Source: an uncultured Oscillospiraceae bacterium (GTDB lineage Bacteria; Bacillota; Clostridia; Oscillospirales; Oscillospiraceae). From it: a DNA stretch of 64,000 nt. Shown one piece after another: positions 48,836 to 53,392 of this stretch; the first letter of the stretch is position 1; each line of letters starts with the position of its first letter. Both the position numbers and the translations under genes were made by a program. The notes beneath the pieces were generated by a model. That model ran no database searches and had not been told where the DNA came from. It saw only the letters and a list, made by a program, of their open reading frames with translations. The stretch is taken from contig CANQIO010000003.1 in assembly GCA_947624065.1 (NCBI GenBank), positions 27,623 through 91,622 on the forward strand, given 5' to 3'.

Positions 48836-49825
48836 ATGGACGGAAGGCTGCTGGCCCAGGCCAGAGAGGAAAAAGAGGATATCCGCCGCCGGGCGGTGCA
48901 GACCGACCGGCAGCGCCATGAGCAGGCGTACGCACGGGTACCGGAGCTGCGCCGGCTGGACGAGCAGATCGCGGCGCTGGTGCCCCAGGCGGCCGCCTCC
49001 GCGCTGGGCGGGGGCCGTCCGCTGGACCAGCTGCGGCGGGAGAGCCTGGACCTGCAGGCCCGCCGGGCGGAGCTGCTGGTGGAGAACGGCTGGCCCTTCG
49101 ACTGGCTGGACGGAGCGTGGGACTGCCCCAAGTGCCGGGACACCGGCTATGTGGAGGGGCGGATGTGCCCCTGCCTGAAAAAGCTCTATGACAAGGCCCA
49201 GGCCAGGGATCTGTCCGCACTTTTGAAGCTGGGCAGCGAGAGCTTCGGCACCTTCGATCTGGGGCTCTATGACGACCGGCCCGACCCGGCGTCCGGGGTG
49301 GCGCCCCGGGCGCAGATGGAGACGGTGTTCGGCATCTGCTACGACTATGCCCTGGACTTCGGCCGCCGGCGGGAGAACTATCTCTTCCGGGGCGGCACGG
49401 GACTGGGCAAGACGTTCCTGTCCGCCTGCATCGCCCGGGAGGTGGCCCGCCAGGGCTTCTCCGTGGTGTACGAGACCGCCGTGGCGGCGCTGGAGGCATT
49501 CGAGAGCCAGCGGTTTTCACGGGACGAGGAAGCCGCCGCCCAGGCTGACGGCCAGGTCCGGCGGATGTGTGAGTGCGACCTTCTCATCCTGGACGATCTG
49601 GGCACCGAGATGGTGACGGAATTTTCCCGCAGCGCCCTCTATACCCTCATCAACAGCCGGCTGCTGGGCCGGAAAAAGACCGTCATCAGCACCAACCTCA
49701 CCGCCGCCCAGACGGCCAAGCGCTACACCCCCCAGATCGTGTCCCGGCTGGAGGGGGAGTTCCAGGTGCTGTCCTTCGCCGGCAGCGACATCCGGGCGCT
49801 GAAAAAGGAGCGGGGCCTGGATTGA
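48836..49825 (+). CDS. dnaC: DnaC/DnaI-like helicase loader ATPase
   Basis: CPKCRDTGYVEGRMCPCLKK Zn motif; FRGGTGLGKTFLSACIAREV Walker A; LLILDDLGTE Walker B. Confidence 0.92.
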   Translation: MDGRLLAQAREEKEDIRRRAVQTDRQRHEQAYARVPELRRLDEQIAALVPQAAASALGGGRPLDQLRRESLDLQARRAELLVENGWPFDWLDGAWDCPKCRDTGYVEGRMCPCLKKLYDKAQARDLSALLKLGSESFGTFDLGLYDDRPDPASGVAPRAQMETVFGICYDYALDFGRRRENYLFRGGTGLGKTFLSACIAREVARQGFSVVYETAVAALEAFESQRFSRDEEAAAQADGQVRRMCECDLLILDDLGTEMVTEFSRSALYTLINSRLLGRKKTVISTNLTAAQTAKRYTPQIVSRLEGEFQVLSFAGSDIRALKKERGLD

Positions 49826-49850
49826 CAGCGCCACTGGGGCGCTGTATAAT
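49822..49850 (+). promoter_or_regulatory. Consensus promoter TTGACA-N17-TATAAT for the MFS gene leader
   Basis: TTGACA 49822-49827 overlaps the dnaC stop; TATAAT 49845-49850. Confidence 0.88.
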
Positions 49851-49874
49851 GCGAGAGCATGAGGTAATTTTATC

Positions 49875-49892
49875 ATGGCATTGCTGGCGTAG
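49875..49892 (+). CDS. Leader peptide MALLA* (candidate)
   Basis: ATGGCATTGCTGGCGTAG preceded by GAGGT, immediately followed by a large hairpin. Confidence 0.5.
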   Translation: MALLA

Positions 49893-49973
49893 AAAACAAA
49901 ATGACCCACGATGAAAAGGCAAGCCGTGGCTTGCCGATTTGTCGTGGGGATCTTTATGCCCATTTTGTTTTTT
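49893..49973 (+). promoter_or_regulatory. Nested hairpin / candidate transcription attenuator upstream of the MFS gene
   Basis: AAAACAAAATG/CATTTTGTTTT, CCCACGA/TCGTGGG, GGCAAGCC/GGCTTGCC nested in order, ending in a T-run. Confidence 0.7.
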
Positions 49974-49989
49974 ACGAGGTCAGTTTACC

Positions 49990-51141
49990 ATGAAAATAAA
50001 ACGGAATATCGTCCTTCTTTACGCCATCGCCTTTCTCCAGGGCATGGTGTTCTACGCCCCTGTGGCCTCCCTGTACCGGCAGGTCCGGGGCCTGAGTCTG
50101 GGCCAGATCGCCCTCGTCGAGAGCATATCCTTCGTCATATCCCTGGCCATGGAGCTGCCCTGGGGCATCGCGGCCGACCGGATCGGTTACAAAAAGACCA
50201 TGATCGCCGGCTGCGGCATATTCGCCCTTTCCAAGCTGGTGTTCTGGCGGGCGGACAGTTTTATGGACTTTTTCTGGGAGCGGGTGCTCCTCAGCGCCGC
50301 CATCGCCGCCCTGTCCGGGGTGGACGAGAGCATCCTGTACTTAAGCTGCCCCGACAGCGAGAGCCAGAAGGTCTTCGGCCGCTGGGGCGCCTTCTCCACG
50401 GCGGGGCTGCTGGCCTCCTCCGGGGCCTTCGCCCTCTGGATGGCGGAGGACTACGCCCTGGCCGCCCTGGCGACCCTCATCGCCTATGGCCTGGCGGCGG
50501 TGCTGACGCTGCTGCTCACGGAGGTCCGTCCGCCGGAAAAGGAGCGCCGGGAGCCGGTGCGCGCCTTTTTCCGGCTGCTGGGCGGCACCCTGCGCCAGAG
50601 GCGGTTTCTGCTGCTGGTGGTCTGCTGGGCCCTGTACGGGGTGGTCCTGAGCACGGTGTGCACCTGGCTGAACCAGAACCAATACCTGCGCTGCGGCATG
50701 TCCGGCCAGGCTATGGGCTGGGTGTACATCGCCGTGTCGGTGGTGTCCCTGTCCGGGGCGTTTTCCCAGCGGTTCACCGACAAGGCGGGCCGGGCCCGCT
50801 CGGCCCTGGGGGCGATAGCCATGGCGGGGCTGGCCTGCCTCACCCTGACGCTGACCCGCTCGGCGGCCCTCTCCGTGGGGTGCATCCTGTTCATGGAGGG
50901 CAGCTATGCCATCGTCGGCCCCCTGGCCAGCCAGGTCTGGAACCGGCAGGTGACCGGCGCCGACCGGGCCACCCAGCTGAGCATCTACGCAGTGCTGGAC
51001 GAGGCCGTCTCCGCCGGGGGCACCCTGATCCTGGGCCGGGCGGCGGACGTGTCCCTGGACACGGCGTTTTTGCTGAGCGCCGGGATCTGTCTTATTTGCG
51101 CGGCTGCCATCACCGCCTTCTGCCGCCGGTTTTTCCAGTAA
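49990..51141 (+). CDS. Major facilitator superfamily transporter
   Basis: 12-TM-like; LYAIAFLQGMVFYAPVASLYRQVRGLSLGQIALVESISFVISLAMELPWGIAADRIGYKKTMI. Confidence 0.9.
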   Translation: MKIKRNIVLLYAIAFLQGMVFYAPVASLYRQVRGLSLGQIALVESISFVISLAMELPWGIAADRIGYKKTMIAGCGIFALSKLVFWRADSFMDFFWERVLLSAAIAALSGVDESILYLSCPDSESQKVFGRWGAFSTAGLLASSGAFALWMAEDYALAALATLIAYGLAAVLTLLLTEVRPPEKERREPVRAFFRLLGGTLRQRRFLLLVVCWALYGVVLSTVCTWLNQNQYLRCGMSGQAMGWVYIAVSVVSLSGAFSQRFTDKAGRARSALGAIAMAGLACLTLTLTRSAALSVGCILFMEGSYAIVGPLASQVWNRQVTGADRATQLSIYAVLDEAVSAGGTLILGRAADVSLDTAFLLSAGICLICAAAITAFCRRFFQ

Positions 51142-51547: not shown

Positions 51548-51583
51548 GTCCCCGGGAGGGCCTTGCCCTTCCGGGGACTTTTT
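51548..51583 (+). terminator. Hairpin terminator ending a short plus-strand unit and/or the ABC-F gene
   Basis: GTCCCCGGgaGGGccttgCCCttCCGGGGACTTTTT. Confidence 0.7.
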
Positions 51584-53049
51584 CACAGCGCCACCGTCTT
51601 GGTGGCGATCTTCTCGCAGAAGGCCCGGTCATGCTCTGCGAACAGGATGGTGGGCTTTGTCCGCAGCAGGAGCTGCTCGATCTGCATGCGGCTGATCAGG
51701 TCGATGTAGTTGAGCGGCTCGTCCCATACCAGCAGGTGGGCCTTTTCACACAGGCTCCGGGCGATGAGGACCTTTTTCCTCTGTCCGGCGGAGAAATCCG
51801 CCATGTCCTTCTCAAACTGGCTCCGTTCAAAGTCCAGCTTGCGCAATATGGCCAGGAAGAGGCTCACATCGATGCCGTACCGCTCGGCGTACCCGGTCAG
51901 GGTCCCCGCCAGGTCGGAGGTGTCCTGGGCCACATAGGAGATGGCCAGACCGCTGCCGGCCTCAAATATCCCCGTATGGGGGATGTCCTCTCCGCAGATC
52001 AGTTTCAAGATGCTGCTCTTGCCCGCGCCGTTGGCCCCCAGCAGCGCCAGCCGGTCGCCCCGCTCCACCGTGAAGGACACCGGCGCGCACACAGGCCCCG
52101 CGCCGTAGTCCACAGCCAGCTCGTGCAGCCGCAGCAGCCGGGGGCTGTGATAGGCCAGGGGCGCCAGCTTCAGGTCCTCCGCCGTGTCGATGTTCCTGAG
52201 AAGCTTCGACTTCTCGTCAATAGCCCGCTGCTGCCGGGTCTCGATGGCCTTGGACCGTTTCATCATCCGGGCGGCTTTGTGCCCGATGGCGCCCCGGTCA
52301 CAGGGGCCGTTGCCGATCTTGGTGGCCTCGACCCGGTCGGACCAGTCGGCCTTTTCCCGGGCGGTCTCCCGCAGACGCTTGATCTCCTTTTTCAGCCGGG
52401 CGTTCTGTTCAGTCTCGAGCTGGTCCTGGTTCTGCTTATTGGCCCACCAGGTGGAAAAGTCGCCCCGGCAGACCTGGATGCCCGCCCGGTTGATGGCGAG
52501 GATATGGTCCACGCACCCGTCCAGAAAGGCCCGGTCGTGGCTGACCAGGATGAAGCCCTTCTTGCGGGCCAGATACCGGCTCACCAGCTCCCTGCCCCGC
52601 ATGTCCAGATGGTTGGTGGGCTCGTCGATGAGCAAAAAGGCGTTCTCCCGCAAAAACAGCGCCGCCAGCAGCGTCTTGGTGCGCTCGCCGTTGGACAGGG
52701 TGGAGAAGGGCCGGTACAGCACCCCCTCGTCCACCGCCAGCTTTCCCAGCTCCCGCTCAAGCTCCCATTCCGGCGCGTCGGGGCACACGGCCGCCAGCAC
52801 GTCGGCGGTGTCCGCGGCCATGTCCGCCACCGGATAGGGGAAGTACTCAAACTCCACCGACGCGGTGATGGTCCCCTGGTACTTATGCTCCCCCATGAGC
52901 AGTTTCAAAAACGTGGTCTTGCCCCGGCCGTTGCGGCCGGTGAAGCCCAGACGCCAGTCCGTGTCGATCTGAAAACTGGCGTGGTCAAAAATGGTGTCAT
53001 AGCCGTCGCCATAGGCGAAGGTCAGATCAGAGACGTCGATCAATGACAT
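51583..53049 (-). CDS. ABC-F ribosomal-protection-type ATPase, Lsa-like
   Basis: MSLIDVSDLTFAYGDGYDTIFDHASFQIDTDWRLGFTGRNGRGKTTFLKLL; two ABC domains, LSNGERTKTLLA, no TMs. Confidence 0.88.
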   Translation of the reverse strand: MSLIDVSDLTFAYGDGYDTIFDHASFQIDTDWRLGFTGRNGRGKTTFLKLLMGEHKYQGTITASVEFEYFPYPVADMAADTADVLAAVCPDAPEWELERELGKLAVDEGVLYRPFSTLSNGERTKTLLAALFLRENAFLLIDEPTNHLDMRGRELVSRYLARKKGFILVSHDRAFLDGCVDHILAINRAGIQVCRGDFSTWWANKQNQDQLETEQNARLKKEIKRLRETAREKADWSDRVEATKIGNGPCDRGAIGHKAARMMKRSKAIETRQQRAIDEKSKLLRNIDTAEDLKLAPLAYHSPRLLRLHELAVDYGAGPVCAPVSFTVERGDRLALLGANGAGKSSILKLICGEDIPHTGIFEAGSGLAISYVAQDTSDLAGTLTGYAERYGIDVSLFLAILRKLDFERSQFEKDMADFSAGQRKKVLIARSLCEKAHLLVWDEPLNYIDLISRMQIEQLLLRTKPTILFAEHDRAFCEKIATKTVAL

Positions 53050-53051
53050 GT

Positions 53052-53219
53052 CATGCCCTCCTTAAAAATCAGAATCGGCCGCGGGAGAACGCTCCCACAG
53101 CCGACGGAGGGCATGGTCACACCATGCCATATGTCAGTTGAAAAAGATGCCGCTCCCCCCGAGGCCGGCATGACAACAAGGCGGCACGCGCCGCCGGGCA
53201 ACCTTTGCCCCGTCATGCC
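53052..53219 (-). promoter_or_regulatory. Multi-hairpin leader of the ABC-F gene with SD-sequestering and terminator-like stems
   Basis: Repeated complementary arms GGCATGAC/GTCATGCC/GGCATGGT/ACCATGCCCTCC and RBS GGAGGGCATGAC on the minus strand; hairpin TCGGCTGTGGGAG/CTCCCGCGGCCGA followed by ATTTTT. Confidence 0.7.
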
Positions 53220-53226
53220 AAAGCTG

Positions 53227-53247
53227 TCAGCAGGAAGCAGAGATCAT
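53227..53247 (-). CDS. Leader peptide MISASC* (candidate)
   Basis: GAGGTGagaagATGATCTCTGCTTCCTGCTGA at the start of the ABC-F leader. Confidence 0.5.
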   Translation of the reverse strand: MISASC

Positions 53248-53392
53248 CTTCTCACCTCAAATCGTATTGGATGGGAACAATATACCACAATGGGCGAAAA
53301 AGTACAAGCCAAAGCAAAATATTTGCGAAATTTATATAAATCGCTTGACAAAGTTCATATACCGGTGTAACATTATCATCGAGGTGAGAGAT

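Follow-up and report, generated by a model that had tools for sequence, protein, structure and literature searches.

The gene for an MFS transporter (383 amino acids; 49990–51141 on the + strand, with its ATG at 49990), located in the 64,000-nucleotide stretch of DNA analyzed here (the window), is preceded by a short leader that is probably a ribosome-sensing translational attenuator with transcription termination as an optional component. This reading is based on the layout of the leader, its conservation, its covariation and the predicted masking of the ribosome-binding site of the MFS gene. We infer, in addition, that the leader ORF is translated, that ribosomes stall on it, that stalling induces the gene and that the protein exports a ribosome-targeting drug.

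The region upstream of the MFS gene contains a sigma-A type promoter on the + strand, in which TTGACA (49822–49827) and TATAAT (49845–49850) match the consensus at 12 of 12 positions and are separated by a 17-nt spacer. The promoter overlaps the stop codon of a dnaC-like gene, has equivalents in congeners and was the only promoter-like site found in a scan of 49700–50100. Transcription is expected to start near 49857, a few bases 5′ of the Shine-Dalgarno (SD) sequence of the leader ORF (GAGGT, 49861–49865, +), which is kept throughout the genus; the inferred start thus leaves scant room for additional upstream RNA elements. The leader ORF itself (49875–49892, +; ATGGCATTGCTGGCGTAG) consists of the five codons ATG, GCA, TTG, CTG and GCG, encoding MALLA, followed by TAG. 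It is followed by nested stems and the MFS gene. Re-reading of the sequence showed that the initial annotation had placed the promoter, the leader SD, the MALLA ORF, the stems and the MFS gene at the correct coordinates.

The predicted fold of 49862–50000 had a free energy of −57.1 kcal/mol, as compared with −31.5 ± 3.9 kcal/mol for shuffled sequences (z = −6.6), and none of the 200 shuffles was as good. In this fold, leader codons 4 and 5, the stop codon and the A-rich arm that follows it (49883–49903, +) form the 5′ arm of an outer helix, whose 3′ arm (49961–49984, +) runs through the SD of the MFS gene (GAGGT, 49976–49980, +), which lies partly in a 3-nt bulge. The beginning of the leader ORF (TCATGG, 49873–49878) pairs with the start region of the MFS gene (CCATGA, 49988–49993, +), where a two-sided change from GC to AU was seen in the genus. 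It had been proposed that AAAACAAAATG (49893–49903), directly after the leader stop codon, pairs with CATTTTGTTTT (49961–49971) to form an outer stem closed by a T-run. While this pairing is real, the end of the helix had been misplaced, as the fold runs on through the MFS SD to the start codon; the U-run actually lies inside the outer 3′ arm and is not preceded by a GC-rich stem. The pairing of leader bases with the SD and start regions of the MFS gene argues that the MFS ribosome-binding site is masked by the leader ORF itself.

We evaluated this masking by the energetic cost of opening the ribosome-binding site, which was chosen over the mean unpaired probability of the SD, a poor measure. 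In an equilibrium model that treats the ribosome as a hard block, the opening cost in the window was 14.6 kcal/mol without a ribosome, 5.5 kcal/mol with a ribosome at the leader stop and 2.5 kcal/mol with a ribosome at the leader start. The corresponding medians for the genus were 13.6, 4.9 and 2.7 kcal/mol, respectively. Shuffling of the upstream part lowered the cost in the window to 5.7 ± 2.3 kcal/mol, and none of 100 shuffles reached the observed 14.6 kcal/mol, although the masking structure tested had been derived from the same sequences. Two congeners (L004 and L015) had a mask that was not clearly above their shuffles in this test. The model predicts that a ribosome stalled on the leader would free the MFS SD.

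The proposed mechanism is as follows. Transcription would begin just 5′ of the leader SD. Under normal translation, the five-codon leader would be finished fast and the ribosome would depart, whereupon the leader ORF and the A-rich arm would pair with the stretch that contains the SD and the start codon of the MFS gene, thereby hiding the site. If a drug that targets the ribosome, or some other translation stress, held a ribosome back on the leader, that ribosome would occupy the masking strand, so that the MFS ribosome-binding site would open and the exporter would be made. In most congeners, the inner hairpin and its U-run may add premature transcription termination.

The layout of the leader is more than chance. 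Of the 34 other genomes in the genus, 14 carried an ortholog of the MFS protein, with identities of 60–93%; the public members of this genus are uncultured Oscillospiraceae from ‘Lapin’ metagenomes, presumably of rabbit gut origin. All 15 leaders (the window and the 14 orthologs) had an SD-preceded ORF of exactly five codons, encoding MALLA (five leaders), MKLLS (three), MVLSA, MVSLF, MKSLS, MKLSA, MAFRS, MAFNS or MVIRS. A covariance model (R1), built on ten leaders and scanned over 35 genomes of the genus, identified one leader per genome in all 15 genomes with the MFS gene and none in the 20 genomes without it; the remaining matches scored low and were the same sites on the opposite strand. 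In these 35 genomes, R1 was not found before any gene other than the MFS gene. In an alignment of the 15 leaders, which was fitted to the tested structure (and hence favors pairing) and consists of related sequences, 95.8% of the cells were paired and 12 pairs had changed on both sides, as compared with 6.0 after shuffling (0/500); slid control structures paired at just 35–52%. The covarying pairs include leader bases opposite the MFS SD and start codon regions, and the two-sided changes are visible by eye. The initial annotation had made its proposal dependent on conservation of the leader ORF and stems in relatives, and such conservation was evident in the 15 leaders, in the covariance model and in the covariation of the stems.

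Variation of the leader peptide within the clade of the window counts against the attenuator reading. As the amino acids vary and the length is fixed, a general stall, of the kind that tetracycline causes at the toiL start codon (PMC12121999), fits this clade better than a peptide-specific one. An alternative would be an attenuator that responds to the scarcity of an amino acid or to the binding of a metabolite, with the MFS protein exporting or importing that compound. The two Leu codons of MALLA and MKLLS could be read in this way, as could the Pro-containing leader ends found in most of the family (see below), and the MFS substrate could be such a molecule. We nevertheless consider it improbable, as the leaders do not contain the single-codon runs typical of such attenuators and the neighboring gene encodes a ribosome-protection protein; the amino-acid form was rejected on the grounds that the genus leaders have no residue in common.

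We then turn to the question of termination. In the initial annotation, the outer stem was a U-run-proximal terminator that a ribosome at the leader stop would prevent from forming. This stem is A/U-rich, with only two G/C in the 11 positions of its 5′ arm, it was not called as a terminator, and its pairing with the SD is family-wide; we therefore discarded it as a terminator. The broader proposal of ribosome-mediated attenuation, with a leader stop codon that abuts the outer arm, has strong comparative support, but covering that arm would free the SD rather than block termination. The terminator-like element is the inner hairpin (49905–49948, +) with a U-run: in a terminator scan, 13 of the 15 genus leaders showed this hairpin with a U-run (mostly TTTTTGCGCCC) after it. 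The element has decayed in the window copy, in which the same scan called no intrinsic terminator, the U-run site reads GATCTTTATG and 12 nt are missing in the alignment. Within the inner hairpin of the window, a promoter/terminator scan flagged the apical sub-hairpin alone, weakly. Transcription termination is thus an optional, extra layer that is weak or lost in the window copy.

The inner hairpins with U-runs in these 13 leaders, as well as the precedents of vmlR (PMC9226507) and mef(E) (PMC4335068), could also be taken to mean that control is mainly by transcription attenuation, in which a stalled ribosome prevents a leader terminator formed by the outer or the inner stem. This seems unlikely to us. 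The window copy has no terminator call, and among 59 family leaders the scan found terminator-like elements in just 27. The outer stem is rich in A/U, and the single and consensus folds inspected contained no antiterminator alternative. Moreover, a ribosome at the leader stop, with the usual footprint, extends no further than the base of the inner hairpin.

To look beyond the genus, we built a profile of this MFS family, which retrieved 80 loci from named genomes, mostly of Lachnospiraceae and Oscillospiraceae but also of Lutispora, Desulfosporosinus and one Collinsella, and the leader layout was present at almost all of them. Among the 61 homologs outside the genus with sufficient upstream sequence, 54 had an SD-preceded ORF (4–14 codons) with a penultimate Pro codon; shuffled sequences gave a mean of 0.56 and a maximum of 3. 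Examples of such Pro-X-stop leaders are MNRPI, MNCPI, MHRPI, MKSPT, MPLSIFSSYDPT and MNNHSISNLNNPT, each followed directly by a stop codon. The final residue in the 55 distinct leaders was Ile (29), Thr (19), Ser (3) or another (4), and their ends used each of the four Pro codons, six Ile/Thr codons and each of the three stop codons. This variety of codons behind one Pro-X-stop signature suggests that the peptide or its termination is under selection. The leader could also be conceived of as a constitutive structured 5′ UTR, limiting or stabilizing the mRNA and containing a short ORF of no regulatory role, in so far as very stable hairpins can act in this manner, but this is very improbable in the face of both the Pro codon kept at a fixed place in 54 of 61 SD-preceded family ORFs and the SD, start, stop and five-codon length kept in 15 of 15 genus leaders while the codons change.

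The Pro codon is also part of the masking helix. In all 48 anchored Clostridia leaders its CC lies opposite the GG of the SD, and the fixed-register pairing between leader and SD was 73.5% Clostridia-wide, as compared with 34–51% for slid registers, with flanking pairs covarying. The peptide and RNA-pairing constraints are not fully separable at the sequence level. In ten longer leaders (12–13 codons), the modeled opening cost was 13.4 without a ribosome, 9.2 with a block at the leader start and 4.3 with a block at the leader stop. Only a ribosome near the stop codon thus opens the site of these leaders in the model, and stalling at the leader end would fit.

In more distant relatives (for example, L154–L156), too, a stem that masks the SD follows a short ORF. 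A homolog on a Paraclostridium bifermentans plasmid (L032:1440–1505) has the leader MHLQD-stop and a single hairpin, GCCCCTATTAGTT/AACTAGGGGGC, that holds the SD and is without a terminator. When the Pro-Ile-stop DNA pattern was searched for in 391 genomes of the class and in 397 genomes from another family, the matches were near the control level and none lay beside a homolog of this MFS; the pattern is insensitive, and other gene contexts are neither shown nor excluded by it.

The penultimate Pro codon is absent from the window leader and its clade. In a maximum-likelihood tree, the Pro-less leaders were clustered, requiring 5 changes as compared with a shuffled mean of 18.9, and the genus of the window together with two further loci (L069 and L070) formed one supported clade within the Pro-X-stop relatives. 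This nested position indicates that the clade lost the Pro motif and retained the masking stem. An actinobacterial locus, that of Collinsella sp. AK_207A (L127), carries the MFS gene with an MNHPI-stop leader and was nested among Clostridia in the tree, which suggests horizontal transfer of the gene and its leader together.

The Pro-X-stop end elsewhere in the family suggests sensing that is more specific than in the window clade. We tentatively raise the possibility, which we hold to be less likely than not to be correct, that the Pro-(Ile/Thr)-stop end constitutes a new arrest motif, where a particular drug or metabolite would block termination or the last peptide bond, and that these leaders control a Clostridia-wide, unnamed family of exporters of that compound; the window clade would then have exchanged the specific motif for a more general sensor of translation stress.

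The MFS protein matched no named resistance family. Its best score against the named antibiotic-efflux MFS families of NCBIfam (Tet, Mef and others) was 25.7 bits, as compared with a cut-off of 430, and 13 members of the family scored no better. TetA(P)/Tet(40), a first guess at its identity, gained no support, and a sequence search returned no relatives with solved structures. At the curated threshold, neither the window nor any of 15 related loci matched an Rfam family, and a permissive scan gave eukaryotic chance matches only. A second MFS family (about 28% identity), present in the genus and the order (L020, L021 and L022), is preceded, some 230 bases upstream of the match, by a leader ORF of about 32 codons that ends in GITAPIFRP, GITAPIFRS or GITAPFFSL before the stop codon; in the two congeners, this ORF is followed by a terminator-like hairpin (GGTCTTTTTTGCGCCC).

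The neighboring gene (51583–53049 on the − strand) encodes an Lsa-type ABC-F ribosomal protection protein, which scored 704 bits against the Lsa model (cut-off 750) and above the general ABC-F resistance cut-off. In the genus, such a gene lies near the MFS gene at six or more loci. The ABC-F gene has a conserved leader of its own (53049–53300, −), with a uORF encoding MISASC at 53247–53227 (MINASC or MINTSC in congeners) and nested hairpins in which the anti-SD GCCCTCC lies opposite the SD GGAGGGC; the uORF differs from the published LsaA uORF, MAGN (PMC10201436). The presence of an Lsa-type ABC-F gene with its own leader supports the notion of an antibiotic-response locus, and its adjacency makes drug induction of the MFS gene, as we infer it, more likely.

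The class of mechanism is already known. In ermC and cat-86, a drug-stalled ribosome on a leader ORF opens an SD-hiding stem, and in cat-86 one stem overlaps the leader end; these systems differ from the MFS leader in having longer leaders, known arrest peptides and other target genes. The closest tested case is cplR of Clostridioides difficile (uORF MRI), which shares with the MFS leader a very short uORF, a stem-masked SD of a resistance gene and a U-run terminator, and in which translational and transcriptional attenuation coexist, the translational layer being sufficient for repression (PMC10201436). Its target is an ABC-F gene, however, and its terminator stem itself masks the SD (PMC10201436), whereas in the MFS leader it is the leader ORF that masks, and the terminator-like hairpin is a distinct, internal element. 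The vmlR leader of Bacillus subtilis (uORF MIN), which is induced by ribosome stalling, likewise has a tiny uORF in a stem, an intrinsic terminator and a separate SD-masking element, but it uses an antiterminator and an anti-antiterminator over about 219 nt (PMC9226507), neither of which was seen in the MFS leader. At Escherichia coli topAI, a ribosome stalled on the toiL uORF frees a masked ribosome-binding site in response to several drug classes, with tetracycline acting at the uORF start codon; this system differs in its toxin-antitoxin target, Rho-dependent termination and unrelated sequence (PMC12121999). Finally, mef(E)/mel (MTASMRLR) also places a leader peptide and an attenuator before an MFS efflux gene, but it works by transcription attenuation, its leader is 327 nt long and its arrest peptide is specific to macrolides (PMC4335068), and its MFS protein and that of the window belong to different families by NCBIfam. 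In the open-access literature, we found no description of the present leaders, their MFS target or the Pro-X-stop signature.

If the proposed attenuator is correct, inducible control by ribosome sensing, which is known chiefly from erm, cat, ABC-F and mef genes, would extend to an unnamed exporter family that is widespread in gut Lachnospiraceae and Oscillospiraceae, among them isolates such as Hungatella hathewayi, Blautia hansenii and Lacrimispora. A sensing ORF that is itself the anti-SD strand would be a simple design to test, and the conserved Pro-X-stop end would provide a direct handle on the sensed signal. The finding suggests that commensals may carry silent, inducible resistance that is unnamed in gene catalogues.
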